Source: a virus
Virus record (IMG/VR): IMGVR_UViG_3300023202_000040
Location: 1 to 37,199 of that record
Length of the DNA: 37,199 bases
Direction: 5' to 3' (one strand)
Shown: one piece after another, positions 1,709 to 37,199 of the stretch
Numbering within the stretch: the stretch's first letter is position 1
Layout of the letters: each line of letters opens with the position of its first letter
The notes under the pieces: generated by a model
The model's database searches: none
Told to the model about the DNA's origin: nothing
Seen by the model: only the letters and a program-made list of their open reading frames with translations
Translations under genes and position numbers: made by a program

Positions 1709-4167
1709 TCAGTGACCTCCAGGTCGGGCGCCCTGCTTGGCGTCGTTCGGCCCGGCCTCCACCAGTAGCCGGTGCCCTGCTCTCGCGCCCTTCGCTCGTA
1801 GCGGTTAAACCGCCGCCGGGCCCCTTGAGGATCCGCCGCCAGGGCCAGCTGGTCGAATACTTCGCGCTCGAGGACAAGCCGCGAGTACCAAAGCGAGCCG
1901 CCTGGTGTGTACCGCGAGGCAAATCCTACTACATCGGCGGCCAGATCGGGGTCCTCGCCTTTGACAATCTCCTGCACGTTGCCGAGCGTTAACCGGGTCG
2001 CATGCTCTGCCATGTCGACGGACGGCCCGAGCATGGTGGTGATCGGCCCGGAGCCGAACCGGTTGGCATCGTGGAACAAAAAGTCGCCATAGATCCCGAG
2101 GCCGCCGCCCTGCACGAACGCGGCCGCCCAGGTTGCCGGGTCGTCGACGTCGCGCGGATCCTTGCCGCGGGCAATGAGTTTCAGCTGCATCGCCGCCATG
2201 CCGAGCACCGTGGTTGCGATGATCCCGTTTGCGGCATAGGCCGCCGCCGCTGCACCGCCGCGCAGCTGTCGGGCCGCGAGTGCCCGCTGCAGGTGCAGCG
2301 ACAGCACGGCGATCGGGAAAGACTTGAATTGCAGGCCGAGGCGCGCGACCTCGCCCATGATCGTGCCCCGCTGCGCACCGCCGCCGGTCGTGATCACGCG
2401 CGCCAGTGCGTCCGGTTCCGGCACGGCATACAAAATTTCCTCGTTAAGGACTTCCTGCACCCTCGACGCCAGTTGCTGCCGGCGAGATATCGGCAGATCC
2501 TCGCGCGCCATCAGCTGGTCGACGGTGAAAAACTGTGCGCCCTGGTGCTCGGTGAGCGATGTGCGTCGGATCTCATCCCAATCGGCCGCCGTCAGGCCGC
2601 GCGAGCGTATTGCATCGCCGAACGGGCCCTCGATATCGTCGAGCGAGCGGCCGAAATTTTCGGCCAGGTTGGCGCTGAACTCCATCGCAAACGCCCGCCG
2701 GCCGGCGTCGGTCATGGCATTCAGGCCAGAGGCGCGGATGGTGAATTCGGACAATTTGGCGCCGACGTCCGATATCCGGCCGACTGTGCCGCCGCCGGTG
2801 CCGCCGATCTCGGAGAACCGGCCAATGTTCGAATAGGCTTCCGACCAGGACAGCGCCGTGATGCCAATGCGGGTGGCCAGTATTCGGTCGGCTTCGTTGG
2901 CGGGGTTGAGTTGCGACAGGTAGCGGCTGAGCACCTTGACCGAGCGCAAACCATTCCAGCGCGCCGTGAGCTGCATGAATCCCATATCGGAAATTGCCGA
3001 CAACGCGGCCGATCCGAGCGTCGCGGCGACATTCCAGTTTCGGATCGCACCGGCGGCGTGCGCGAGCATAGGCGAGCGATTGGTGTCGCCAGTGCCGTTG
3101 ACGATTCGAAACAGCGCATCATTGTTCTGTCGAGTGATCGGCTTGTCCTCGACGGTGCGAGCGAGATCCTGCAGGTAACGGAAACTCGCCGCCGGATTCG
3201 GCCCCATGACCTCGAGCAGCGACACGTCGCGCGCCATGTCGCGCAGGTGGTCCATCATGCTCGCGTAGACGTTTGGCGAGCCGAAACGGTCCTGGTATTC
3301 GATCCAGGCATCGGCGTCGCGAAATACCAAAAACCGCGCTTCCTGCCGGCGGTTGGCCAGCTTCTTGCCGCCGGCGGCACCCGGCACCATATCGCTCAGG
3401 CCGTTCGTCCGGATGGTTTCATAGACGCCCTGCAATACGACGTCTAACGAGTCCGGCGTAAAGGGCGCGCCAGTCTCGACGTCGATCATGCGATCGATAT
3501 CGACACGCTGCTTGACGAAATCGACCCACTCGCCCTTAGAGACATTGCCAACCGCGACTGAGTCGTGCGCTTGTGGCAAGCCCCAATCGGCGCGTTTAGG
3601 GATTGCCCCGCCGGCGCGGTTGAAGCGCTGGCGCAGAGTCTCTGCGGCTTCCGACCAGGAGCGTGCAAAGGCGCGCGCATCGGCGTCGCCGGTGGTTTCG
3701 CCGAACGCCTCGCGAACCGCATTGCCGAGCATTTTGCGGTTGCGCGACAGGCCGGCCATTCTCGAGCGAAGCTGTGACAGACCATCGGCCATGATCGCGT
3801 GCGCCTGGCCAAGAATCGCACGGCCGCGGGTCTCGACATTCGACCAGCTGGCCCGCCCTCGACTGTCGCGCGCGAGTATCGTGCGCACGCCAAGCGTCGG
3901 CCCGTCCTGGTAGTCGAGGATCCGGCGGCCGTTCTCGGCGTTTCGGATGGCCTGCAGGGCCGCCTGATACTTTTGCAGCCTGACGTCTTGTTTGGCGCGC
4001 TCGATGCCGAGCTCCTCGGCCAGGCGGGCAGCGGACTCGGGCGAGTGTTGTGGGTCCAGCACGAACCGATCGGCGGCGTCGCGCTGCCTGGCATACAGTT
4101 CTTCGGCCTGGTCCCTGGTCATACGGCCCGCCCTGACGGCGGCCTCGACACAATCGGCAAAACTCAT
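1705..4167 (-). CDS. Large internal virion protein (ejected core protein, 820 aa)
   Basis: Probably one of three proteins stored in the capsid around the portal and ejected with the DNA to form a channel across the cell envelope, as T7 gp14, gp15 and gp16 do. That role is inferred from position, immediately upstream of the tail spike and downstream of two other large internal proteins, and from composition. The body is helical and charged. A hydrophobic Ala-rich stretch at about residues 630-660 follows a QFKSFPIAVLSLHLQRAL motif that I associate with large phage virion proteins of this type. The C-terminal tail is Arg-rich. The start at 4167 overlaps the previous stop (ATGA); an in-frame ATG nine codons earlier lies inside the preceding gene and is less likely. 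No lytic transglycosylase motif was recognised. Confidence 0.7.
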   Translation of the reverse strand: MSFADCVEAAVRAGRMTRDQAEELYARQRDAADRFVLDPQHSPESAARLAEELGIERAKQDVRLQKYQAALQAIRNAENGRRILDYQDGPTLGVRTILARDSRGRASWSNVETRGRAILGQAHAIMADGLSQLRSRMAGLSRNRKMLGNAVREAFGETTGDADARAFARSWSEAAETLRQRFNRAGGAIPKRADWGLPQAHDSVAVGNVSKGEWVDFVKQRVDIDRMIDVETGAPFTPDSLDVVLQGVYETIRTNGLSDMVPGAAGGKKLANRRQEARFLVFRDADAWIEYQDRFGSPNVYASMMDHLRDMARDVSLLEVMGPNPAASFRYLQDLARTVEDKPITRQNNDALFRIVNGTGDTNRSPMLAHAAGAIRNWNVAATLGSAALSAISDMGFMQLTARWNGLRSVKVLSRYLSQLNPANEADRILATRIGITALSWSEAYSNIGRFSEIGGTGGGTVGRISDVGAKLSEFTIRASGLNAMTDAGRRAFAMEFSANLAENFGRSLDDIEGPFGDAIRSRGLTAADWDEIRRTSLTEHQGAQFFTVDQLMAREDLPISRRQQLASRVQEVLNEEILYAVPEPDALARVITTGGGAQRGTIMGEVARLGLQFKSFPIAVLSLHLQRALAARQLRGGAAAAAYAANGIIATTVLGMAAMQLKLIARGKDPRDVDDPATWAAAFVQGGGLGIYGDFLFHDANRFGSGPITTMLGPSVDMAEHATRLTLGNVQEIVKGEDPDLAADVVGFASRYTPGGSLWYSRLVLEREVFDQLALAADPQGARRRFNRYERRAREQGTGYWWRPGRTTPSRAPDLEVTE

Positions 4168-7100
4168 TGCGCAGCCTCCCGGCTTATGTTGCAAAGTCGA
4201 ATATCTTCAAGCGCCAGTTCGACGTCGTCCAGCTGGTTTATTGTCTGCCGGGCCGAACGCTGCGTGAGCTCGCCGTCGATCTCGCGAACCACTTGCAAAA
4301 GCTCGCCCTGGTCGTCGGCCAGTTGCTGGTAGCGCTCCATTACGGCCCGATAATCGGTATCGGACACAGTGCCGGTGCGCGTCGATTCACTAGGATCCGC
4401 TGCGTTCTCGCGTACAATAGACCTCGGAGGTTGATCTATGGCAGTACGGTTTTTCGATTGGGAGTTTAGGCCCGCCGCAGTGCGGGATCTGCCTTCGGGC
4501 GGCGAGGACGGCCTGGTAGTCGCCGAGCCCGGCGAAGGCTGGTCGCCCGCTTCGGTTGCCGAAATCCTCGAATCCGGTGAGGAGCTCTCGGCCGAGGTGT
4601 TCGTCACGCGATTCCCCGAAGCGCCCGCCGTCCCGGAAGCCTCGGCCGCCTGAACCCGCGCCCGCATGTCCTCGGGCAACTTCATCATCGCCATTCGCCG
4701 GTAAGATTCATCCGCCCGGGCCAGGGCGGCCGCATATAGTTGCATGCTTTCCTCGGCCATCGCCTGCCGTTGCGCTTTGAGCGCCGGACTCGCGGCAAGT
4801 TCCTCGTCAGGTATGTCTCGCAGCGCTTTGGATATCTCCGTGCCACGGCCAAATTTGGCCTCGGCGATGTTCGGTTCCCATATCTGTACCTCGCCGATTT
4901 GACCGTTTTTAAAGCGCACAAGTACCTTGTGATCGAGATAGCCAAGTCCGCTGTAATGCAATCCCTCATCGAGCAGCTCGAACTCGTCGGCCAGGCGGGT
5001 AACGATCGCGTCGGAGGCGGCGTCCGTGCGGGCAGTAAAGCCGATACGGACGACATCGGTAACGCGCTCAGTACCGTACTTTTTGCGCGTCGTTTTCTTT
5101 TTGACTTCCGTGCGCTTCTTGAGCCCCGGGTTTTTGAGCTCGACGTCGTCACCGAGATCCTCGGCGATTGCGCCGCCCACCCTGGCGAGTCGATTCTGGT
5201 TTGTTTTCGCGTTCTTGTAGAGATCGCCTAACGACCAGCCGCGTTGGCCGGCCAGGAACCGGCGCGCCGCGCGCGGACGTTCGGCCTGCTCGAGATTGTC
5301 GAGCCGGACCGGGCGGCCTTCGACAGGATCTAGCCGAGCCTCATCGCCCGCCGCTTCACTACCCGATCGAGCTCGGCGAGTTTCGCCCCCGCCGTTATTG
5401 CTTTCGAGGACCGCGCGTCGAGCGGTGTCGAGAAAATCGGCGGCGACGTCTGCGGGTTTTTCGCCGCCTTTGACCCGCCGCGCGGCTTCGGTGAGCGCGT
5501 CTGAGATCGGGCCTTTACTGTTCGCGAGCCTTGAGATTTTCGCCTGGGCATCGTTAGCCTCCTGGATGCGTTGCTGATTGGCGGCGCGATCGAGCTCGTT
5601 GCGGCCCGCCTCCTGAATCCTGTTTTCCTCGGCGACCAGGCGGCCGAATACGGCTTTGTCTTTCCTGGCCTCGCGCAGGGCATTATCGAGCACCTGGGCG
5701 CGTTCGAGATACAGGGACTCGGTGATCGACTGCGCGCCGAACAGGTCCTCGGTCTCCACAGTCTCCGTGCCGGCAGTGCGCACCTGGTCGACGATCGAGC
5801 GGGCTTGCGTTTCGTTGGCCGGCTGCGTCTTTCTGAGCACCTCGATCATGGCCTGCTGCAGCTTCGGGTCGCTGGCGGCATCGCCGACCAGCGCGCCGAA
5901 TCGTTCATCGATCACGCCGTTGACGACCTGCATAAACGCATCGTCGTCGAGTTTGGAAAGTCCGCGCGCCTGGCGCACCAGGGCGGACCGTGGCGGCAAC
6001 GGTGGCAGCATGGCATCGCCGAGCTCGCCTAACTCGCGCAGAATCTTCGCCGCATCGATCGGTGAGCCGGTACCCTCGGCCATGTTCTTGATCGCCGCCA
6101 CCCGGCGCGCATCGCCCGCAGTGACGCCATCGACCTCGCGCATGACGAAGCCATTGAGCATGGTCTCATCGGCTGCCTGGCCGGCCTCCCGGGCTCGAAG
6201 CGCCAACGCGCGCCGCTGGTGGCCGTCCGCAATGAACTGGCGCCCGTCCTTGCGCTCCCATATCAGCGACACGCCTGCCAGTCGCCGATCGAACTGGCGG
6301 ACGTCTTTAAGCGCATCCGTGACGCCGGCATCATCGGCGCCGCCTTTGAACTGAAAGGTTCGGGCATCGACGTCGATCTCGGCCGGATCGATATCGACCA
6401 GCTCCCCGGGATCCTCGGCGCGGGTAATTGTCCGATTCATGCCGTCTGCAGGCTCGAATTCTTCTACCACGCTACGCACGTCGACCGCCTCGCCACGTTG
6501 AGCCTGCTGCTGTGCAATGTCGAGCGCGTCCTCATGGACGGCGCTGGCGGGCTCCTCGTTGAGCCTGAGCGGGTTTTGCTCGTCGACCTGTTCAAGCGCC
6601 TCGAGGATCCGCTCTGCCTCGGCCATTTCCTCGGTCTCGACCACCCGCCCGGCCTTTTTAGCGGCCCTGTAACGCGCGAGCGCCCGCCGTGATCCCTCTA
6701 CCCCGGTCCCTATCGCACCGCCCAACAGCGCACCACCTGCGCCGGCAGCGAGCACGTTAAGCGCCGAATCTCTGAGCGTCCACGGCGCCTCAATATCCCG
6801 CTTGAACTGCGCCACCTGCGCCTGAATCGGTATTTCTACCGCCGCCGCGACCGAGCCCTCGATCGCCGCCGTGCGCCCGAACACACCAAGCAGGCTTCGG
6901 CCGGCGCCGCCGGTGGCCCCTGCGGGCAGCGTTGCCAGTACCATTGGATCGGTCATTACGGCCGCACCGGTGCCGACCAGCTGGCCGAAGAATCCCCCGC
7001 GTTCGATTGCGAACTGCTCGCCGGTTCTGAGTTCAGCCGCCTCGGCCTTGAATTCCTCAAGCAGCGCCTGATCGCTCGGCACCCGGCCCGGGTATCGGCG

Positions 7101-7463
7101 TTCGAATTCGAGCACCTCGTTGAAAGCCGCCTGGCCGCGCGGACCGATCGAGCGATAAAACGGGTGGCTTTCGAGCCGCCCCTCGAGCGCCGCCTCGCGC
7201 AAAGTCTTCACAAAGTTCTGCGGCAGCAAGGCGTATTCAGCAGCGAGCTGCTGATTGCCACCGAGCTCGGCGATGGTCTGCGCGCGTTGGTCGTTCTTTT
7301 GCCGCCAGGCGCGCATGGCCGAATTGCTGAGTTCCTCGCGTCGTGTGAGCGAAAAAGCGGCTTCGATGGTCTCGGAAAGCGTGCTCGGCTCGTCGTCCGC
7401 GGTCCAAGGTTCAACGCCCGCCCGCGATCGGTACGCCTTCAAACCGTCGAGAAAGCCGCTCAT
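4164..7463 (-). CDS. Giant internal virion protein with ParB-like and RelA/SpoT-like domains (1099 aa)
   Basis: By position this is the central ejected core protein, between two other large virion proteins. It is a mosaic. Residues 1-145 are helical. Hydrophobic Gly/Ala-rich patches lie near 150-190 and 235-257. Residues about 350-470 look like a ParB/Srx-type domain: VDIDPAEIDVDARTFQF, an EXK-like strand, then ADGHQRRALALR with D413, H415 and R417. Residues about 760-900 carry a RelA/SpoT-type synthetase signature: LKKR at 781-784, K788-790, VTDVVR with D803, GLGY with Y842, then GEVQI with E858, followed by an AKF helix. A Ser/Pro/Thr/Arg-rich low-complexity linker follows (about 935-1020), then a C-terminal coiled coil. 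The gene starts at a TAATG overlap with its upstream neighbour. The domain calls are by eye; whether they are catalytically active is unknown. Confidence 0.72.
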   Translation of the reverse strand: MSGFLDGLKAYRSRAGVEPWTADDEPSTLSETIEAAFSLTRREELSNSAMRAWRQKNDQRAQTIAELGGNQQLAAEYALLPQNFVKTLREAALEGRLESHPFYRSIGPRGQAAFNEVLEFERRYPGRVPSDQALLEEFKAEAAELRTGEQFAIERGGFFGQLVGTGAAVMTDPMVLATLPAGATGGAGRSLLGVFGRTAAIEGSVAAAVEIPIQAQVAQFKRDIEAPWTLRDSALNVLAAGAGGALLGGAIGTGVEGSRRALARYRAAKKAGRVVETEEMAEAERILEALEQVDEQNPLRLNEEPASAVHEDALDIAQQQAQRGEAVDVRSVVEEFEPADGMNRTITRAEDPGELVDIDPAEIDVDARTFQFKGGADDAGVTDALKDVRQFDRRLAGVSLIWERKDGRQFIADGHQRRALALRAREAGQAADETMLNGFVMREVDGVTAGDARRVAAIKNMAEGTGSPIDAAKILRELGELGDAMLPPLPPRSALVRQARGLSKLDDDAFMQVVNGVIDERFGALVGDAASDPKLQQAMIEVLRKTQPANETQARSIVDQVRTAGTETVETEDLFGAQSITESLYLERAQVLDNALREARKDKAVFGRLVAEENRIQEAGRNELDRAANQQRIQEANDAQAKISRLANSKGPISDALTEAARRVKGGEKPADVAADFLDTARRAVLESNNGGGETRRARSGSEAAGDEARLDPVEGRPVRLDNLEQAERPRAARRFLAGQRGWSLGDLYKNAKTNQNRLARVGGAIAEDLGDDVELKNPGLKKRTEVKKKTTRKKYGTERVTDVVRIGFTARTDAASDAIVTRLADEFELLDEGLHYSGLGYLDHKVLVRFKNGQIGEVQIWEPNIAEAKFGRGTEISKALRDIPDEELAASPALKAQRQAMAEESMQLYAAALARADESYRRMAMMKLPEDMRARVQAAEASGTAGASGNRVTNTSAESSSPDSRISATEAGDQPSPGSATTRPSSPPEGRSRTAAGLNSQSKNRTAIDQPPRSIVRENAADPSESTRTGTVSDTDYRAVMERYQQLADDQGELLQVVREIDGELTQRSARQTINQLDDVELALEDIRLCNISREAAQ
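4438..4653 (+). CDS. Possible overprinted antisense small ORF (71 aa)
   Basis: A 71-codon frame lies on the strand opposite the low-complexity linker of the 1099-residue virion protein. It has an unusually good translation start: GGAGG at 4426-4430, seven bases before ATG. A TACAAT hexamer at 4413-4418 could be a -10 box, but I see no convincing -35. The protein begins MAVRFFDWEFRPAAVRDLP and then becomes acidic with alternating hydrophobic residues, a protein-like composition. The sense frame here reads as Ser/Pro/Arg/Thr-rich low complexity, which is what an unconstrained frame opposite a constrained one can look like. No family was recognised. It may equally be a chance ORF in GC-rich DNA. 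Confidence 0.25.
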   Translation: MAVRFFDWEFRPAAVRDLPSGGEDGLVVAEPGEGWSPASVAEILESGEELSAEVFVTRFPEAPAVPEASAA

Positions 7464-10039: not shown

Positions 10040-12130
10040 TCAGGCTTTACCGACGTCGAGGACGCCGGCCAGGGCCAGAATGTGAAACGGCAACGGCTGT
10101 TCCTGCGTCAGTGTAATTGTCGCATCGCCATCGGTATAGCCGAGCTCGCGTGCAGTGAGCAGCCCGGTATATGGCTCGTCCAGGGTGGCGAACTGGCTAA
10201 CGCCCGGCTGCGAGTCCGGGATCAGCTGGCCGTTGGCAACAATGCCGAGCGAGTTCAGCACCCGCAGACGGATATCGGTGATGCGCTTCCTGGCGCCGAG
10301 TAGCGGCCCGCCGCCGAATTCGACCACGAGCGGCATGGTCTCGACGATCGGCGGCACGAAGTAACCGGCCTCGAGCGACGTGGTTGGCGCTGTCTCAACG
10401 GTAATCTGGCCGCTTGAGTCGACGGTCACATCATCGACCGGCGCCCCGTCGACCAGTACCTGCACGGTTTCACTTTGCAAATGGTCGAAACCGGCCGTCG
10501 TCGTTCCGAGCCCGCTGGTGACGGTCTTGGCTGCATCCAAGCGCGTGTCATAGTCAGCCACCTCGAGCGTGTAAACCGTCTGTCCGTCGCGCTCGCGTTC
10601 GACCAGGTAAAGGATATCGGTGCCGACCGTTGCCACCTGCCTGAGCTTATCGCCTGAGCGTGTGTTGTCCTCGGTCCAGGCGGCAATGTCCTGTGCCCTG
10701 AGCGTGTTGAGAATGGCGCCGGTGCCGTCTGCGTTGATCGTCAGTACATAACTGTCCTCGTCGTCGCTGGTCGACGTCAGCGCCGCCATGCTCGAGATCA
10801 TCGAGAACAGATGCGACGACAGCACCGAAAGCGACGTCGCGTTATACGCCTCCTCGGCCCACAGGAACAGGTATTCGCGGACGGTTTTCTTGTCGCGGGT
10901 GACGAAAAGGGTGGCACCGTCGACCTCGACGGGCGGGATGGCCGAGGCACAGCCGAAACGGGATTGTCTGGGCAGTGCCGGCGCCGGCGTCAACGGCCGA
11001 TCGGGCGAGTAGAACTCGCCGCCGGAGGTGAACAGCTGCAGGTTGCGGCCGGCATAAATCGCCCGAAACGCATTGACCTGGTCGGTGTTCACGGTGACGA
11101 ATATGCCCTGGTCATCGAGCCCGGTTCCCTCGTTGAAGTCGTAAGGATTGAAACCGCCGATCACGGTGCCGAGCAGGGTCTGCGGCAACGATTTAAGGCC
11201 GGCAAAGAGCAACCGGGACTCGTAGAACGTGCAGGCAATCGGCCAGCCGCGGGTGGCGCTGATGGGATCCTCGCGCCTGGGGCTGCCGGTTTGCGTCGTG
11301 GTGAGCGTGATCGATGCGCCGGTGTTGTCGGTATTGCGCCCGGTCATGTCCTCGTAGGCGTCCGCTGAATCGCCCGAGAATGTGATTGTGTACGTGCTGG
11401 CGGCCTCGGATACCGATATCGAGGTATCGGCGAAACCGGTCGGCGGCAGGAGCAGGAGCTCCTCTTTGATGCGCCGCTCGTTGGCGTCGACGTCGGTATT
11501 TGAAAAGACGATCTCCGGCGTTTCGAAGCCATTGAGCTCGAGCTTGTAGCGATCGCCATCGGAAAAGCCGTTGAATACCAGCGTCACAATATGGTTCGTC
11601 GGCGTCGGCGAATCGCTGTCGTTGAAATCGTACTGCGGCAGGTTGACGGTCGAGAGCGTCGACAGGGTCCACAGGTTGTGATCGGTGCCGCGCACCAGCT
11701 GTCGCTGCTCGACATCCGGATGCGTGATGATCATCGTGTCGGCCGACTGCGTGAAATTGAGTTCGAGCGCCTGGGCCGTCGTCCAGGGTGCAGCGAGATA
11801 GTCGTTGCCGCCACCGTTGATATCGGTGATCAGCGCGTAATCCTTGGCGCCTGCTGTTTGCTCGCGGAAAAATTCGATCTTTGAGTCGGTGATGACCAGC
11901 GCGTAATTCTGCTCGGTGTTGAACGAGAACTCGATCAGGCGGCCATTGCCGGCGACGTCGTCGATATGCCGGCGGCCCCACCGCGCCCGGACGCCGCCCT
12001 CTTTCGGACAGACGACGTTGATGCCGCGGAGCATGCCTTGGTAGTAGTGCTGGATATCGGTGCGAGCCGCGAGCCCCGGATTCAGGACCCCGGAGGTGAA
12101 TGCGGTCTGTAGCGGCTGGCGGCGCGCCAT
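10040..12130 (-). CDS. Tail tubular protein B (gp12-like, 696 aa)
   Basis: Forms the nozzle of the short tail in podoviruses, below the gp11-like adaptor. The N-terminus, MARRQPLQTAFTSGVLNPGLAARTDIQHYYQGMLRGINVVC, is characteristic of this family: a short segment leading to 'F.sGvl.P.l..R.D...Y..g......n..p..eGG...R.G'. The remainder is beta-rich with many TV/TI strands, as expected for a propeller-like protein. I place the start at 12130, one base after the stop of tail tube A; an in-frame upstream ATG at 12208 would run back into that gene and gives an Arg/Ser-rich shadow-like sequence. Neighbours on both sides are tail and internal virion genes. Confidence 0.86.
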   Translation of the reverse strand: MARRQPLQTAFTSGVLNPGLAARTDIQHYYQGMLRGINVVCPKEGGVRARWGRRHIDDVAGNGRLIEFSFNTEQNYALVITDSKIEFFREQTAGAKDYALITDINGGGNDYLAAPWTTAQALELNFTQSADTMIITHPDVEQRQLVRGTDHNLWTLSTLSTVNLPQYDFNDSDSPTPTNHIVTLVFNGFSDGDRYKLELNGFETPEIVFSNTDVDANERRIKEELLLLPPTGFADTSISVSEAASTYTITFSGDSADAYEDMTGRNTDNTGASITLTTTQTGSPRREDPISATRGWPIACTFYESRLLFAGLKSLPQTLLGTVIGGFNPYDFNEGTGLDDQGIFVTVNTDQVNAFRAIYAGRNLQLFTSGGEFYSPDRPLTPAPALPRQSRFGCASAIPPVEVDGATLFVTRDKKTVREYLFLWAEEAYNATSLSVLSSHLFSMISSMAALTSTSDDEDSYVLTINADGTGAILNTLRAQDIAAWTEDNTRSGDKLRQVATVGTDILYLVERERDGQTVYTLEVADYDTRLDAAKTVTSGLGTTTAGFDHLQSETVQVLVDGAPVDDVTVDSSGQITVETAPTTSLEAGYFVPPIVETMPLVVEFGGGPLLGARKRITDIRLRVLNSLGIVANGQLIPDSQPGVSQFATLDEPYTGLLTARELGYTDGDATITLTQEQPLPFHILALAGVLDVGKA

Positions 12131-12131
12131 G

Positions 12132-12707
12132 TCAGTACCTGCAGTCGATAAACGGGTTCGGCAGGGGCTCCTGATTCGGCTGCTGCTGCGCGTCCTCGAA
12201 CAGGGCATCGCTTCGCGCGATATCGCGATCGTTGCGCATTTCCGCCGAAGGATCGTCGCCGGTGATGCCTTTGCAGGTTTTGACCGTCAGCTGCGCGATC
12301 ACAAATTCACGGAACCAGGGCGGCCAGTCGCCTTCCTTCACGTAACGAATGTAGTCGATCGTGATCGCGCTCGAGTTGTTGCTCAGGAGCTTTTTGATGC
12401 CCTGGATCTCGTAGTTTTCCGGCGGGAACACGTAAAGCATTTTCAGGTAGTCCGGCGGCAGCTGCCAGGCCGTCGAGTAACGGGCCTCGGGCGCCGCCGA
12501 GAGTTTCGTCAGCGCGGCCTTCTTGGTTGCAAATCGCCAGTTCGATCGCGTCAAGCACGCCTCGGCAATTTGCTGATAGTTCAGGCGCATGATCAGTGCC
12601 GTCTTTGACGTGTCGTTTTCTAAATTGGTGATTTTCTCCTCGCCCATCCGGCCCGTGAGCGCCTGGTTGATGATGTCGAGTTTTGCGAACGTGCTCGGCG
12701 TCGGCAT
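12132..12707 (-). CDS. Tail tubular protein A (gp11-like adaptor, 191 aa)
   Basis: The ring protein connecting portal and nozzle in T7-like tails. The length is typical of the family, which runs close to 190-200 residues. The N-terminal region has the family's usual features: an 'IINQALTGRMGEEKITNLEND' segment, then an ACLTRSNWRFATKKAALTKL helix, then the YSTAWQLPPDYLKMLYVFP segment where the chain enters the beta-domain. It directly precedes tail tube B with one base between them, a normal gp11-gp12 order. Confidence 0.86.
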   Translation of the reverse strand: MPTPSTFAKLDIINQALTGRMGEEKITNLENDTSKTALIMRLNYQQIAEACLTRSNWRFATKKAALTKLSAAPEARYSTAWQLPPDYLKMLYVFPPENYEIQGIKKLLSNNSSAITIDYIRYVKEGDWPPWFREFVIAQLTVKTCKGITGDDPSAEMRNDRDIARSDALFEDAQQQPNQEPLPNPFIDCRY

Positions 12708-30343: not shown

Positions 30344-30381
30344 GGTGGTGCGTATTGAGTGAACTATCGGAGGATCCTGCA

Positions 30382-30960
30382 ATGAAAACGCTATTTCCCA
30401 GAGCCGCCTACCTGCCCACCGATCGCAAGGTGCGCATTCGGCAGCACGACGACGTCCCGGCTATGATTGCGATGTACGACACGAATGGCGGCCGCACGGT
30501 CGCTTTGGCGTGGCGTGGCAAAGCGCAAAAGCCGGCCCTGCATTACTCATTTCGCTCCCACTGCCGCGCCGAGAAATACGTGCGGGAGTGGCTCGCGGAC
30601 CAGCGGGAAAGCGCCGCCGCCAAGGCGCGCGCCCGGGCCGCAAATAATGGGCCGCACAGCCTGCGCGTCGGACAAGTGCTTTACTCGTCCTGGGGTTACG
30701 ATCAGACAAATATCGATTGGTACGAGGTGACGAAGATCCTCGGCAAGCGTTACGTCGAAATACGGCCGATCAGTAGCGTCGCGGTCGGCGAGCAGGGTGG
30801 ACCGCAGCAAGGTACCGCGCCGGCGGTTGGCAAGTACACCGGAGAGCCGATGCGGAAGGCGGCAGGCTTCGACAATTCGATCAGGATCGCGAGCTACGCC
30901 TTTGCCCATCCATGGGACGGCGAGCCACAACAGGAAACCGGCCACGGTTGGGGGCATTGA
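30382..30960 (+). CDS. Conserved early phage protein of unknown function (192 aa)
   Basis: First gene of the rightward unit. ATG 30382 has GGAGGA eight bases upstream; a TTG at 30355 lies too close to the promoter. The N-terminal part (PTDRKVRIRQHDDVPAMIAMYDTNGGRTVALAWRG, then a HYSFRSHCRAEKYVREWL helix) is followed by VGQVLYSSWGYDQTNIDWYEVTKILGKRYVEIRPI and a KAAGFDNSIRIASYAFAHPWDG ending. I recall proteins with this 'WGYdQTNidfY-V' core in many phages and plasmids, without a known function. It may be an anti-host factor expressed first. Confidence 0.65.
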   Translation: MKTLFPRAAYLPTDRKVRIRQHDDVPAMIAMYDTNGGRTVALAWRGKAQKPALHYSFRSHCRAEKYVREWLADQRESAAAKARARAANNGPHSLRVGQVLYSSWGYDQTNIDWYEVTKILGKRYVEIRPISSVAVGEQGGPQQGTAPAVGKYTGEPMRKAAGFDNSIRIASYAFAHPWDGEPQQETGHGWGH

Positions 30961-30961
30961 C

Positions 30962-31270
30962 ATGAGCAAAGTTATAGACGCCAGCCAGGTCGATAATCGG
31001 CCTGGCGCTTACTACGTCACCGCCCGCGACGGCGATCGGCACTGGCTCCTGAGCGGGCCCTACATCGACGACCATGGCGGCGCGTTGGCGGTCGTCGACG
31101 ACGCGCGGCAGATCGCCCAGGACTCCAACCCGCGCGCTTGGTTCTACAGCTACGGCACGGCACGCATGGAGACGCCCGAGAAAATCGGCAGCCTGCAGCG
31201 CACCGGCACGTGGCCCCTGCCGCGGTCCGCGATCGCGGCAGGTATCACTCTGGACGGAGGTGCGGCATGA
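30962..31270 (+). CDS. Unknown small early protein (102 aa)
   Basis: One base after the previous stop. The sequence DNRPGAYYVTARDGDRHWLLSGPYIDDHGGALAVVDDARQIAQDSNPRAWFYSYGTARM is a small alpha/beta domain that I have seen in phage accessory regions without a name. No catalytic motif is evident. The stop overlaps the next ATG (ATGA), so it belongs to the same message. Confidence 0.58.
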   Translation: MSKVIDASQVDNRPGAYYVTARDGDRHWLLSGPYIDDHGGALAVVDDARQIAQDSNPRAWFYSYGTARMETPEKIGSLQRTGTWPLPRSAIAAGITLDGGAA

Positions 31271-31806
31271 GAGCTTTAAGACATGAAGGTTACGCGGTCG
31301 GCGACCTGGTCCGCGCATGGGATTTCAAGCCGGCCGAGGACCGGCGGGATCGGTTCGTCGACGGCCGGATCGTCGAGGTGCTCGACGTCGACGGCATGCT
31401 GGCCCGCGGCTTCGAGCCCTACCGGGCCTACCGGATCCAGGTGTACCGGGATTCGGCATTTCCCGAAACGCCGCGGCCGGAGATCTTCGCGCCGCTCGAG
31501 GTGACGTTCCTCGAATGGCCCGAGCGGATCCAGTACCTGGCCGAGGTGGGCATGGCCTGGGAGACGCGCGGCTTCGACACGGAATACTCGCCGCGATTCG
31601 AGGCCCTCACCGGCCTCGATCGAGCGATCCCGGCGCATGACTTCCTGAATGCCGGCTTTGGCTTGCGGTCCGTGCCCCTGGCCATGATGCGCGGCGACTG
31701 CCACGACGACACGCTCATGCGGATCTACACGCTGGACCGGCTGCGAGGTTTGAGCCCGGTGCAGCGTGAGCGAGACGCGCAGCGGTGGCTGGCGGTGACG
31801 TCATGA
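31267..31806 (+). CDS. Unknown early protein (179 aa)
   Basis: The opening GYAVGDLVRAWDFKPAEDRRDRFVDGRIVEVLDVDG suggests a small beta-barrel (KOW or Tudor-like spacing), followed by YRAYRIQVYRDS and a helical C-terminal half (YLAEVGMAWETRGFDTEY, DTLMRIYTLDRLRGLSPVQRERDAQRWL). The fold guess is weak and no function is assigned. It is coupled on both sides by ATGA overlaps. Confidence 0.55.
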   Translation: MRALRHEGYAVGDLVRAWDFKPAEDRRDRFVDGRIVEVLDVDGMLARGFEPYRAYRIQVYRDSAFPETPRPEIFAPLEVTFLEWPERIQYLAEVGMAWETRGFDTEYSPRFEALTGLDRAIPAHDFLNAGFGLRSVPLAMMRGDCHDDTLMRIYTLDRLRGLSPVQRERDAQRWLAVTS

Positions 31807-31997
31807 GCGCCCCGGCGAGGAAATGGCGCTACGGTTGCGACCAGCCGGTCGCCGTCTACGTGCCGCGCGGGTGGGACTATCGCGAGATCGAGCTCCCCTG
31901 CGGATCGACCGGCCCGGATGGCGAGGTGGTGCAGTGCGACAGTTGCGCCAGGCACATCACGCCACCCAGGGCGCCGGCCTACGGTGACGACCTGTGA
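31803..31997 (+). CDS. Small four-cysteine protein, possible zinc ribbon (64 aa)
   Basis: Cysteines at residues 12, 33, 45 and 48 (GCDQP, LPCGS and QCDSC) could bind one zinc ion, with the last pair in CxxC form. The rest is polar beta. Such small ribbons in early phage regions often bind host proteins or nucleic acid. ATGA overlap with the gene before and GTGA with the gene after. Confidence 0.52.
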   Translation: MSAPARKWRYGCDQPVAVYVPRGWDYREIELPCGSTGPDGEVVQCDSCARHITPPRAPAYGDDL

Positions 31998-32215
31998 GCG
32001 CCGCGGAGATACTCGAGCAGCACGCCCGCCGTCCGGTGCGGGCGTTCCTGCGCAACGCCGACGTCGAGGCCGAGGAGGCCTTCTGGCGCCTGGTCTACGC
32101 CGATCGGGCCCAGGTGGATTACTCCACGGCCCTGTCGGTCCACAATCAGATCCTTAACTGCCCGCGCCCCGTTCAGGACGTGATCGACGGTTGGCGCCCG
32201 GAGGGCCTGCAATGA
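31994..32215 (+). CDS. Unknown small early protein (73 aa)
   Basis: Starts at GTG overlapping the previous stop. A helical, acidic protein (EILEQHARRPVRAFLRNADVEAEEAFWRLVYADRAQVDYSTALSVHNQIL). No motif was recognised. Confidence 0.5.
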   Translation: MSAAEILEQHARRPVRAFLRNADVEAEEAFWRLVYADRAQVDYSTALSVHNQILNCPRPVQDVIDGWRPEGLQ

Positions 32216-32391
32216 GCAGTAAATTCAGCACACTCCTGTACGGAGATCTCGAGGCGGTCTCCGACATTCTCGAGGGCGACTATCCGCCCCAGGACTTGCC
32301 CGAGGTGCGCGCCGCGCTGTCGAATATCACGCGCCACCTGATTCGCCTCGAGGCCGCCCTCGATGCGGCCCAACCGGAGCTCCCACTATGA
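32212..32391 (+). CDS. Unknown small early protein (59 aa)
   Basis: ATG at 32212 overlaps the previous stop (ATGA). Mostly helical, with LPEVRAALSNITRHLIRLEAALDAA at the C-terminus and an acidic patch before it. No motif was recognised. Coupled to the HD-hydrolase gene by an ATGA overlap. Confidence 0.5.
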   Translation: MSSKFSTLLYGDLEAVSDILEGDYPPQDLPEVRAALSNITRHLIRLEAALDAAQPELPL

Positions 32392-32822
32392 ACCCAAACG
32401 ACGCCACCCTGTTCGCTGGCCGTGCGCACCATGGCCAGGCTTACGGCACCCGCCCCTACCTCGAGCACGTCGCCGACGTCGCCGGCCGTGTCATGGCCGA
32501 CGATCGCGCCAACGACGACGCCATTGTTGTCGCCTGGCTGCATGACGTACTCGAGGACACGAGCGCCAGCAAGCGAGACCTGCAGGCCGCCGGCATCACG
32601 CCTCGCCAGCTGCGCGCGCTCCTGCACCTCACCAGGCACAAGGGCGAGGACTACTCGGCCTATATCGGCCGCGTTGCTCAAGATGAGATCGCCGTCCTGG
32701 TGAAATGGCACGACCTGCACAGCAACCAGGCGATGCGCCCGCGCCCCGACCTTGCCGAGCGCTACGCCGCCGCAATCCAGCGGCTGGCCGAAGTGGTCGA
32801 ATGGCTGGACGACGTCGCATGA
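32388..32822 (+). CDS. RSH-type HD phosphohydrolase, small alarmone hydrolase-like (144 aa)
   Basis: A compact stand-alone HD-domain enzyme resembling the hydrolase half of RelA/SpoT homologues and MESH1, which use Mn to remove the 3'-diphosphate of (p)ppGpp. Seen in order: RPYLEHVADVA with H27; AWLHDVLEDT with H52, D53, E56 and D57, the hallmark HDxxED; a YSAYIGRV helix near 89-96; and VKWHDLHSNQ with K106, D109 and N113, matching the 'KlaDklhN' motif. All metal and catalytic positions I can place are present, so it should be active. It is an early gene embedded in a coupled cluster. Possible roles are lowering alarmone levels during infection, or detoxifying products of a toxic synthetase. 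Other nucleotide substrates are possible. Confidence 0.78.
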   Translation: MNPNDATLFAGRAHHGQAYGTRPYLEHVADVAGRVMADDRANDDAIVVAWLHDVLEDTSASKRDLQAAGITPRQLRALLHLTRHKGEDYSAYIGRVAQDEIAVLVKWHDLHSNQAMRPRPDLAERYAAAIQRLAEVVEWLDDVA

Positions 32823-33232
32823 CCGGCATCGACCGCAAGGCGGCCAACGCGCACGCGCTCAGGATGCAAAAACTGGCGCGCAGCCTGATAGAACCGAAGC
32901 CGGCCGAGGACATGCTCGCCGATGCCCGCAAACTGCAGGTGCAGTGCGCGCAGCTTTTGCGTTTGCTGACGCCCGCATCGCCGATCGGCTCGCGAATTGC
33001 GATTTCCGACCAGGTACAGCCGGATCTCGAGGCAATCCTGAACGATATTGCCGGAGTTCTTTCAGAGATCCTCGAGGGTTACGGGTTTGCGCTGTTTCTG
33101 TTCGAATTTGGCGAGGACAATCTGCTCAACTACATATCGAATGCGCACAGAGACGACATGGTCGCGACGCTCCGCGAGTTTATCGCCGCCCACGAGGGCC
33201 GTATTCAGCCAACCCCCGAGACAGACCAGTGA
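32819..33232 (+). CDS. Unknown early protein (137 aa)
   Basis: Starts at ATG overlapping the hydrolase stop. Almost all helical: HALRMQKLARSLIEPKPAEDMLADARKLQVQCAQLLRLL, a QPDLEAILNDIAGVLSEILEGYGFALFLFEFGE hydrophobic stretch, then a polar C-terminus. No motif was recognised. Its coupling to the hydrolase gene suggests joint expression. Confidence 0.52.
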   Translation: MTGIDRKAANAHALRMQKLARSLIEPKPAEDMLADARKLQVQCAQLLRLLTPASPIGSRIAISDQVQPDLEAILNDIAGVLSEILEGYGFALFLFEFGEDNLLNYISNAHRDDMVATLREFIAAHEGRIQPTPETDQ

Positions 33233-33543
33233 GCGATCGAGGCATTCACGCGACGGTATATGACGAGCTCGGCGAGCGCGTCGGCCACTGCCTGATGATC
33301 GGCCCGCGAATACCGCGCCTGCATCACTCGGACGGGCTGCCGGTGATGTTCGTGACTGAGCACCTCGACGGCAGTCTGATTACCGACCGCCAGGGGCAAA
33401 GTGCCCGCATGCTGGCGTATCCGTCGACGTTGCCAGGGCCTGGTCAATGGCGGGGCCGCTACATTTGGGCAAACTACGAGCGCTTGCCGTTCGTCGCGCC
33501 GATTCCGTTGCACGATCACGAGCAGGAGGATGACCATGGATAA
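33229..33543 (+). CDS. Unknown early protein (104 aa)
   Basis: GTG start overlapping the previous stop (GTGA). Beta-rich with HATVYDELGERVGHCLMIGPRIPRLHHSDGLPVMFVTEHLDGSLI and a Gly/Pro/Trp-rich second half. It ends in an His/Asp/Glu-rich tail. No family was recognised. Confidence 0.5.
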   Translation: MSDRGIHATVYDELGERVGHCLMIGPRIPRLHHSDGLPVMFVTEHLDGSLITDRQGQSARMLAYPSTLPGPGQWRGRYIWANYERLPFVAPIPLHDHEQEDDHG

Positions 33544-33694
33544 CACCAGGCGGTGGCAAAACGCGGAACGCCGGTCGGCCTACTATGCCGGCGAGGCGAC
33601 ATTCTGGCGAAAACAGGCCCGAGAATGGCGCCTGGCGGCGCTGGTGAGCATTGCTCTGAACCTGATGGCACTGGCAGGCGTTTTTTTATTGTGA
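33536..33694 (+). CDS. Small single-span membrane protein (52 aa)
   Basis: The N-terminal 30 residues are basic and polar (RRWQNAERRSAYYAGEATFWRKQAREWR) and the last 20 (LAALVSIALNLMALAGVFLL) form one membrane helix, so it is a tail-anchored or C-in membrane peptide. GAGGA lies before ATG 33536. Being early and away from the lysis cassette, it may act on the host envelope, for example in superinfection control. Confidence 0.52.
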   Translation: MDNTRRWQNAERRSAYYAGEATFWRKQAREWRLAALVSIALNLMALAGVFLL

Positions 33695-34020
33695 TGCCAC
33701 AAGACAGGCGAATGACGCAGACGGCTAAAATCCGGCGCCCGCCAATGCGTTACCACGGCGGCAAGTGGAAACTGGCTCCGTGGATCATCGGGCACTTTCC
33801 GCCGCATCGCATCTACGTCGAACCGTTCGGCGGCGGCGGATCCGTGCTGATGCGCAAGCCCAGGTCTTACGGCGAGGTTTATAACGACGCTTGGGGCAAT
33901 GTCGTCAATGTGTTTCGGGTGCTCCGCGACCATGCCGACGAAATTGAGCGCCTACTCTACCTGACGCCGTTCAGTCGCGACGAGTTCGAGTTGACCAGCG
34001 AGCGCGGTCATTGTGATTGA
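33694..34020 (+). pseudogene. Dam-like adenine methyltransferase, N-terminal fragment (108 aa)
   Basis: Residues 18-100 match the start of D12-class N6-adenine DNA methyltransferases: PPMRYHGGKWKLAPWIIGHFP, YVEPFGGGGSVLM (SAM-binding motif), then EVYNDAWGNVVNVFRVLRD and LTPFSRDEFE. The protein then stops. The catalytic DPPY motif and target-recognition region, which normally follow for about 150 more residues, are missing, and I do not find them in another frame downstream because the next gene begins at 34013. It is therefore either a decaying gene or a minimal protein that binds SAM without methylating. ATG 33694 overlaps the previous stop (TGATG); ATG 33712 is an alternative. Confidence 0.72.
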
Positions 34021-34951
34021 GCCTGACGCCATCGAGGGGGAGCTTGCCGACGAACCGTGTGAGCTCACTGAACGCCGTGAGAGCCGCCAGGCGGCCGTTT
34101 TCAATCCACTCGACGCAGAGCCCGCCAGGTTCGCGAATCAGCTTAAAGCGCGACAGGAGAACTATGACAGCCTGCAGATGCACCTTCGCGGCGTGCTGGT
34201 GCCCGACAAGGATTTTGGCCGGCTACACGTGGCGAAGGACTGCCCGGACGGTAAATGGAACTGCACACGCCGCGGTCACTGGTCCGATTATCAGCTGTTT
34301 GCGTCGGGCGCCGACAAAATACTCGGCATTCTAGGTCTGGCGGTTCGCTATCCGGATCTCGTCGACTACAAGCGCGCGTGCTTGAGCGGCACGAAGATCC
34401 ATGAGGTGATCGTCGACTGCGAGATCCTTGGCCACAGCGAACAGGCGATCGCTCAGGGCGCCGGCGCGTGCTCGAGGAGCGAGAAGAACATGAATGGCGA
34501 CCTGAATCGAACGATTAAGCGGGCCTGCAAACGCGCCCGGGTCGACGCCGTGCAGCGCCTGCCGGTGGTCTCGGCATTATTCGAGGCGGACTTTCTGGCC
34601 GGCGTCGAGAAGGCGGCGCGCGCCAACAAAGGCAACAGCACCGCCAGGCGCCAGCAACAGGTCAAGAATCCTTGGGATACCGGCGCAGAATTGGACGTAT
34701 GCCCGATTTCCAAGAACTACAAAGGCAAGCCGTGGCGCGACATTCCGACCGACGCACTTGAATGGATGGAGTCGAACGTCCACGATAAGCCTGACGTACA
34801 ACGGGCGGTGGCTCGGGAGCTTTCCAAACGGCGCGCCTCTGCGTCACCAGGATCCGGCTCAATACGCACCGGGTCGCCGCCCCCTTCCGATCAGGACGAC
34901 CTGGAAGCCTGGCTCAATGGCGAAACGCCCGCCGGGCGCCCGCCGGAATAA
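34013..34951 (+). CDS. Putative single-strand annealing (recombination) protein (312 aa)
   Basis: Starts at GTG 34013. The core reads CPDGKWNCTRRGHWSDYQLFASGADKILGILGLAVRYPDLVDYKRAC, then EVIVDCEILGHSEQAIAQGAGACSRSE and LNRTIKRACKRARVDAVQRLPVVSALFEADF. The pattern 'Ga-ki---lgl', 'c-i------G-Ga-S-E' and 'N---K-a-KrA-vdA-----s--F--D' is shared by a family of phage and plasmid proteins that I associate with Rad52-like annealing proteins. Near 235-280 a motif CPISKNYKGKPWRDIPTDALEWMESNV resembles the 'GK-kGk-w-diP--yL-W' tail often seen on such proteins. It probably anneals ssDNA in recombination-dependent replication, with the VRR-NUC nuclease. Family membership is by eye. Confidence 0.55.
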   Translation: MIEPDAIEGELADEPCELTERRESRQAAVFNPLDAEPARFANQLKARQENYDSLQMHLRGVLVPDKDFGRLHVAKDCPDGKWNCTRRGHWSDYQLFASGADKILGILGLAVRYPDLVDYKRACLSGTKIHEVIVDCEILGHSEQAIAQGAGACSRSEKNMNGDLNRTIKRACKRARVDAVQRLPVVSALFEADFLAGVEKAARANKGNSTARRQQQVKNPWDTGAELDVCPISKNYKGKPWRDIPTDALEWMESNVHDKPDVQRAVARELSKRRASASPGSGSIRTGSPPPSDQDDLEAWLNGETPAGRPPE

Positions 34952-36220: not shown

Positions 36221-36715
36221 TTAACTCTCCTCGCGTAGCCGGCGAACCCCAAGGATTCGCGAGCGTGAATAGCGGGCGATCGATACCTGGTTGCCCTGAT
36301 TGCCGCCAAGGATCTCGATCAGGTCGCCCGCGTGGCCTGCATAAAATCCGACATGCCCGGGTGCGTCGATCACCTGCGGACCCGGCTGCGGGCCGGTGCC
36401 GCGCGCCAGTATGACGACGTCGAAGCCGACACGCGCATTTTCTAGCTGGTGCAGCCCTACCCCGCCGCCGGTCGCTGTCAACGCAACCGGTTTGCCGACC
36501 TTGAGCCAGGAGCGCGCCCGCAAACTTTTCGACCGCGGCAGCCTGAGCAGCCAGGCGATGTAATTCGCGAACGCTGAGCACCAGGGCACTTCATCGTTCT
36601 CTGGCCAGCTGGCATCTAGGCGCAGCATTGCAAGCACCTGGGGATTGTCCAGCTGCCCGGTGATTTCCTCGGTGCCGATAAAGCGTTCGGCAATGTCGAA
36701 TGCGGTGATATTCAT
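36221..36715 (-). CDS. Endolysin, TIGR02594-type cysteine amidase/peptidase (164 aa)
   Basis: Degrades peptidoglycan at the end of infection. The pattern is that of TIGR02594/CHAP-like phage cell-wall hydrolases: VPWCSAFANYIAWLL with catalytic C46; GFDVVILARG near 98-106; PGHVGFYAG with H121; and IEILGGNQGNQVSIARYSRSRILGVRRL with N139. Cys, His and a polar third residue are all present. No signal peptide is seen, so it needs the holin next door. The start overlaps the tail-spike stop (ATGA). Confidence 0.84.
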   Translation of the reverse strand: MNITAFDIAERFIGTEEITGQLDNPQVLAMLRLDASWPENDEVPWCSAFANYIAWLLRLPRSKSLRARSWLKVGKPVALTATGGGVGLHQLENARVGFDVVILARGTGPQPGPQVIDAPGHVGFYAGHAGDLIEILGGNQGNQVSIARYSRSRILGVRRLREES

Positions 36716-37199
36716 CAGCTGCTCGCGTGGTTTCCGAATGCCTCGAGTGTGGCCAATATCGCGTTGACTTTGCCGCCCAGGGCATCGAGCGCGGCGTTGA
36801 TGGTGGCGTCGTCACCGGACCCCGAGACGCCGTGCGATTCGCTGGCGTCGGTTACGTGGCTGCGCGATTGTATTGGCGTAGTGACGTCGCCGATCGAAAA
36901 GCGCGGCGCGTAGGTATAGCCGCTGCCGTTGATATCCAGGCCCTTCACGCCACTCACGTCGCGCGTCTGCAGCACGGTATTGCCCGAGGAGCCGCGGGGC
37001 ACCAGCGTCAATGCCGGCCGGTCGTCGCCGAAGCCGCGAATGGTCACGGCGCAGGACATGAGCGCCAGCAGCAGGCGGTTATAGGACACGCTGGCCGCGT
37101 CGGCGACGCCGGCGACGTCGTCGTTGGCAAACGAAAAGCCGGGATTCGCGCTCGAAGCCACCTTGATCAGCACCGGCTTGACCGCCGTCGGGTTGCCGG
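36715..37199 (-). CDS. Tail spike / tail fibre, C-terminal part (continues from base 1)
   Basis: This is the C-terminal end of the tail spike that begins at 1708; bases 37101-37199 duplicate bases 1-99. The new part adds the last 128 residues or so. They are rich in beta-prone and small residues and end in a short predicted helix (AALDALGGKVNAILATLEAF), which could be a trimerisation tip. The stop overlaps the ATG of the endolysin gene at 36715 (ATGA), so tail spike and lysis genes are translationally coupled. A GTG at 37173 is in frame but lies inside the protein and is not a real start. Confidence 0.82.
   Translation of the reverse strand, partial: GNPTAVKPVLIKVASSANPGFSFANDDVAGVADAASVSYNRLLLALMSCAVTIRGFGDDRPALTLVPRGSSGNTVLQTRDVSGVKGLDINGSGYTYAPRFSIGDVTTPIQSRSHVTDASESHGVSGSGDDATINAALDALGGKVNAILATLEAFGNHASS
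37101..37199. repeat. Terminal redundancy of the contig (right copy)
   Basis: Exact copy of bases 1-99. It should be trimmed once when the genome is circularised. The tail-spike coding frame crosses the join without interruption. Confidence 0.93.

Follow-up and report, generated by a model that had tools for sequence, protein, structure and literature searches.

Why should one phage genome encode both an enzyme predicted to break down alarmones and a protein domain that resembles the enzymes making them? The question is raised by IMG/VR virus record IMGVR_UViG_3300023202_000040, which was analyzed over its whole length (37,199 nucleotides, here called the window) and which looks complete, with a 99-base repeat at both ends. 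An original prediction, made from the letters alone, described a stand-alone small alarmone hydrolase (SAH) expressed early in infection, and a synthetase-like domain carried by a virion protein of the same genome. Judged by sequence and modeled fold, the first of these belongs to the small alarmone hydrolases of RSH type and has kept its whole active-site set; we hold with moderate confidence that it most likely undoes a host shutdown based on alarmones or on tRNA pyrophosphates during infection. The gene in question is:

32388 to 32822, + strand: small alarmone hydrolase (SAH) gene; ATG start, 144 aa, HD fold; motif residues H27, H52-D53, E56-D57, D109, and N113

All seven residues of the RSH hydrolase motif set (H27, H52, D53, E56, D57, D109, N113) are present in this open reading frame (ORF), each exactly where the original prediction had placed it. 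Across 43 aligned viral homologues (alignment A1) the first six are invariant and the seventh is N in 40 sequences and H in 3, an invariance that is partly by construction, the homologues having been retrieved with patterns that included WLHDVLED. The same catalytic set is found in independent homologues, namely the solved structure 7smg, three Aph1 proteins, and the SAHs of phages SSU5 and PVP-SE1. The gene has a GC content of 0.76/0.43/0.83 at the three codon positions, a coding-frame profile resembling that of the structural genes of the window; a chance ORF on GC-rich DNA, considered in view of a 146-aa ORF on the opposite strand (32280 to 32720), was excluded by this profile and by homology. 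The chain is a lone hydrolase domain, with an HD model spanning all 144 aa and no synthetase domain.

Family searches placed the protein among the RSH-type hydrolases. PHROG_990, annotated as "metal-dependent phosphohydrolase," matched residues 4 to 140 (E 1.6e-32), while the NCBIfam SpoT/RelA models gave a weak match to the N-terminal half and Pfam returned HD_4 only below its cut-off, which is uninformative by itself. The best sequence match among solved structures was 7smg, a (p)ppApp hydrolase (E 3.8e-10, residues 9 to 132), followed by PaSAH, Rel, and MESH1-type chains. An AlphaFold2 model built from a 43-row viral alignment reached a mean pLDDT of 96.5 and a pTM of 0.90; Foldseek ranked 7smg first for this model (TM 0.82), then PaSAH, MESH1, Rel, and SpoT, and the VIA-align Z scores were 21.1 for 7smg, 18.3 for PaSAH, 17.1 for MESH1, and 7.0 for YfbR. 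The top 25 VIA-align rows were all RSH hydrolases (Z 21.1 to 11.2). The family profile, 7smg, and the intact active site thus agree with the claim of an RSH-type hydrolase, and the better match to a 5'-nucleotidase-type HD family that would have spoken for another identity was not found, YfbR scoring far below 7smg.

The known (p)ppApp hydrolases, comprising 7smg from Bacteroides caccae and the prophage Aph1 proteins of S. pneumoniae, M. haemolytica, and P. multocida, are similar in length to the window SAH and share its fold (rmsd 1.5 over 130 residues for 7smg), as well as the segments LTR..E.Y..(Y/F)I.R and VK.HDL..N in the case of 7smg. PaSAH (6yvc/6z3n) and MESH1 also have the same fold and catalytic set, at Z 17 to 18.3, but the window SAH falls short of the solved chains by about 30 residues and differs from them in the element that follows the GQ motif. 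SAHs are mainly of three types at this place (A1 residues 16 to 24; window 32433 to 32459): R-R-D-G, D-K-A-G, and x-Y-G. Many homologues read RRDG and the Aph1 proteins DKAG, while the window SAH reads AYGTRPY and belongs to the Y-G type, which accounts for 9 of the 43 A1 rows and has no basic pair at this point, perhaps a sign of a different substrate. Arg24 and Lys25 of MESH1 presumably sit at this same place. Unlike the Aph1 proteins, then, the window SAH has no Asp-Lys after GQ, and in the SAH tree it lies outside their clade on the longest branch, with a placement that is unsupported; a joint clade with Aph1 was not rejected (p-AU 0.591), and among groupings with Aph1, the Y-G subtype, or the SAH of a related phage contig (G033, described below), no alternative was either rejected or supported.

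Our preferred interpretation, that the SAH is directed against the host, proposes that this metal-dependent enzyme would remove the 3'-pyrophosphate from (p)ppApp and/or (p)ppGpp, and possibly also the pyrophosphate from the 3' CCA end of tRNAs modified by toxSAS. It would be an exchangeable accessory protein made from a non-structural operon, and its targets would be toxSAS/CapRel-type abortive infection or the stringent response of the host. There is precedent for such a role. The original prediction named phage SAHs as known antidotes to toxic synthetases, which is borne out by PMC11559606 and PMC7644958: the former describes PaSpo of SSU5 taking off the tRNA modification made by FaRel2, and the latter, citing Jimmy et al. 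2020, states that the SSU5 and PVP-SE1 SAHs relieve FaRel toxicity. PaSpo was also co-expressed with CapRel-SJ46 so that CapRel-SJ46 could be produced (PMC9712102), and HD-type alarmone phosphodiesterases of large phages have been proposed to act in counter-defense (PMC7824862). A profile made from A1 finds the SSU5 (PaSpo) SAH at E 1.9e-22 and the PVP-SE1 SAH at E 3.6e-33, and these toxSAS-neutralizing proteins have in common with the window SAH the profile, the catalytic residues, and their occurrence as stand-alone phage genes. They differ from it in being distant in sequence, in that the activity of the window SAH is predicted, and in their setting, since SSU5 and PVP-SE1 are large phages (103 and 146 kb) whereas the window phage measures 37 kb and has a structural block like that of T7.

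The distribution of the family is also consistent with host-directed counter-defense. SAHs are common in phages (tblastn matches in 468 of 50,697 phage records, about 1%), scattered over many of them, and nearly always occur without a virion synthetase-like domain. The nearest complete relative of the window, G002, is closed by a terminal repeat and collinear with the window (terminase 68% and domain-bearing protein 50% identical); it has the synthetase-like domain, lacks the SAH, and carries other genes in the matching accessory block, a pattern that fits an exchangeable host-interaction gene. PADLOC assigned no defense family to either the SAH or the domain-bearing protein.

Several points weigh against this interpretation. 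The enzymatic activity of the SAH is predicted, and we infer this activity, its substrate, its time of expression, and its purpose from sequence and model. With neither Arg-Arg nor Asp-Lys after GQ, and with its place on the longest branch of a tree that gives it no settled position, the base and substrate of the enzyme are not predictable. No particular host toxSAS can be put forward as its target, and the Apk-type domain that the phage also encodes favors self-protection as a rival. If the SAH does act on host alarmones or modified tRNA, it would add to the examples of phages that wipe out an immune signal built on nucleotides or tRNA, in this instance from a small genome with room for few accessory genes.

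That rival depends on the synthetase-like domain, which is part of a large protein encoded on the opposite strand:

4164 to 7463, - strand: 1099-aa virion-region protein, between phrog_684 and phrog_992 head/virion proteins; phrog_10691 match at aa 296 to 708 (polyvalent-type)
4719 to 5240, - strand: RSH synthetase-like domain, aa 742 to 915 of the 1099-aa protein; Tas1/Apk1-like

A profile of relatives was needed to recognize the domain, because Pfam gave no family for the virion-region protein, aa 742 to 915 included, and a single-sequence search of the PDB gave nothing credible. The sole significant solved match of the family profile was Tas1 (Apk1), a type VI (p)ppApp synthetase, at E 5.4e-9 when the profile held 7 rows and 5.2e-12 when it held 16. 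The domain model (pLDDT 93.6) has the small alarmone synthetase fold, with Z of about 15 to RelQ, RelP, and Tas1, and Tas1 was first in Foldseek. The invariant D..R and E.Q columns line up with Tas1, as do the G-Y columns, and the catalytic Asp and Glu are kept. The acceptor-site motif is GxN in Apk enzymes and SxH in RSH enzymes (PMC12226406), and the domain has neither; the family reads GY.D.K where Tas1 reads GYSGVN (the Syn3 signature of (p)ppApp synthetases), and nearly all 16 aligned members have D-x-K, suggesting a substrate that is perhaps unlike that of either known kind and possibly new. The synthetase-like domain of the original prediction is therefore present, and is of Tas1/Apk type by profile and fold, while its transport in the virion and injection would be expected from gene position and from the literature on polyvalent proteins (PMC5512222). 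Phage-borne RelA/SpoT domains have been described in polyvalent and in MuF proteins (PMC5512222), and the 1099-aa protein resembles the polyvalent ones with RelA/SpoT and DdrB-ParB domains in being large, multidomain, and equipped with an RSH-type synthetase domain; it differs in its podovirus-like virion-region setting and in having relatives in alpha- and gamma-Proteobacteria genomes.

The SAH could on this basis be an immunity enzyme for the Apk-type domain of the phage itself, as Aph1 is for MuF-Apk2, protecting the producing cell (in which the domain would be made late), a lysogen, or a newly infected cell after injection. We regard this as possible but doubtful. The likeness of the domain to Tas1/Apk1 in sequence and fold and the (p)ppApp hydrolase that is the closest solved relative of the SAH both argue for it, and the arrangement has a model in temperate phages, where an Apk domain in a head protein is accompanied by a hydrolyzing immunity enzyme (MuF-Apk2/Aph1; PMC12226406), with Apk2, IapK, and Aph1 in the same order in three Pasteurellaceae phage records. 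The window phage likewise encodes an Apk-type domain in addition to its SAH. However, its SAH gene is not placed as aph1 is, in one operon behind apk and iapK; about 25 kb of the record separates it from the synthetase-domain gene, which is on the other strand, no IapK-like partner was recognized, and the gene that follows the domain protein encodes a conserved virion protein. The position of the SAH outside the Aph1 clade counts against self-protection as well, although a joint clade was not rejected.

Co-occurrence bears more directly on the matter. The survey covered 16 other viral contigs with the synthetase-like domain, five of them with terminal repeats (G002, G033, G031, G035, G037) and four more of 35 to 38 kb (G028, G032, G034, G036). 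Only one of the 16, and hence one of the nine that are complete or near full-length, has a SAH: G033 (L194), found with the A1 profile at E 7e-29 and, as the only contig, with Pfam HD_4 too. This second syntenic genome, closed by a terminal repeat and carrying both SAH and domain, speaks for self-protection, but its SAH (11728 to 12135, - strand), which is of the Asp-Lys type and adjoins a homologue of the window gene at 30355 to 30960, is just 33% identical to that of the window over 93 aa, and the closest complete relative, G002, lacks the gene. The domain was further found at eight loci in bacterial genomes, mostly of alpha- and gamma-Proteobacteria, none with a SAH on the same contig within the limits of the available contig extent. 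Conversely, of 49 contigs with a SAH a single one, G060 (180 kb), has a related domain, and no SAH was found among 41 terminase relatives, many of which are fragments and two of which also carry the domain; counts of 1/9 among domain phages and 0/41 among terminase relatives are too small to decide whether the pair is enriched. The expectation that hydrolase and domain would recur together as a conserved unit was thus not borne out. Though the pair is not conserved, the two may still be linked in function in single genomes. If the SAH does act on the product of its own phage's domain, the logic of the MuF-Apk2/Aph1 prophages would extend to podovirus-type inner virion proteins.

Two observations from the survey concern the domain itself. 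It is present in the genomes of the named isolates Ancylobacter, Aminobacter, Pleomorphomonas, and Rhodoblastus (L219, L220, L221, L224), and because it occurs in bacterial isolate genomes, some of those phages are probably prophages; the occurrence of such relatives in bacterial genomes counts in favor of self-protection. The related domain of G060 lies in a protein of 413 aa (L197, 979 to 2220).

A purely metabolic role, in which the SAH lowers the housekeeping (p)ppGpp of the host and keeps transcription and replication high in slow-growing cells, with no defense system or toxin involved, strikes us as unlikely. Membership of the RSH hydrolase family agrees with it, and PMC12846349 suggests a similar metabolic role for the SAH that Pseudomonas phage Adele encodes, but 7smg, the nearest solved relative of the window SAH, bears the name of a (p)ppApp hydrolase, and the window SAH lacks the Arg-Arg after GQ that is common in homologues. 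As far as sequence goes, this role is not clearly separated from the counter-defense that we favor.

Less probable again is a two-step weapon of a small T7-like phage, in which the injected Apk-type domain, with D-x-K as a new acceptor-site signature in place of GxN or SxH, would pyrophosphorylate a host nucleotide or RNA during virion entry and the SAH would later remove the product, when the phage is in control. The "early" and the "pulse-and-reset" of the original prediction draw on gene orientation and on analogy. A general HD phosphohydrolase or 5'-nucleotidase of nucleotide metabolism (YfbR, OxsA, or YpgQ type) is very improbable: those families have the HD fold in common with the SAH (Z of about 7 to 10.6), but the RSH ED motif is present at E56-D57 and the fold ranking, headed throughout by RSH hydrolases, rules such an identity out.

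Taken by itself the window SAH is an ordinary member of its family, and both phage SAHs and phage RSH domains were already known. No publication cited here describes one genome in which an inner virion-region protein of podovirus type has a Tas1-like domain and an unlinked SAH is encoded as well.

The SAH gene lies in a block of + strand genes, in which these features were recorded:

30355 to 34951, + strand: accessory/non-structural block holding the SAH, ending with gene 34013 to 34951 (312 aa, phrog_10048), which is conserved in G002
32191 to 32391, + strand: upstream small gene of no known family, called from TTG at 32191, with an ATG near 32212 as a likely start; the SAH start codon shares bases with its TGA (ATGA)
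32819 to 33232, + strand: downstream gene, 137 aa, phrog_35296, function not assigned; its start overlaps the SAH stop (ATGA)

Sharing four bases (ATGA) with each of its two neighbors, the SAH gene lies in a tight operon. Besides small accessory genes, the block contains a partial D12 methyltransferase gene and the conserved 312-aa gene, while the minus strand encodes the terminase, the portal (head-tail adaptor), head proteins, and the large inner virion-region proteins. From this orientation and content, early expression of the + strand block is plausible; a promoter scan of the block found one promoter-like site against 1.5 expected and was uninformative on timing. No integrase or polymerase was recognized among the scanned window proteins, and positions 1 to 25000 of the window had no near DNA relative among the 50,697 phage records. 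The D12-class DNA adenine methyltransferase frame (33553 to 34020, + strand) contains only the N-terminal part, about 70 to 90 residues of a 253-residue profile, and closes at the start of the next gene. A tail-fiber-like frame of about 700 codons crosses the end junction on the minus strand, running from 36715 back to 1708, and given this frame across the artificial ends, the large + strand ORFs at 1 to 1708 and 36715 to 37199 are spurious.
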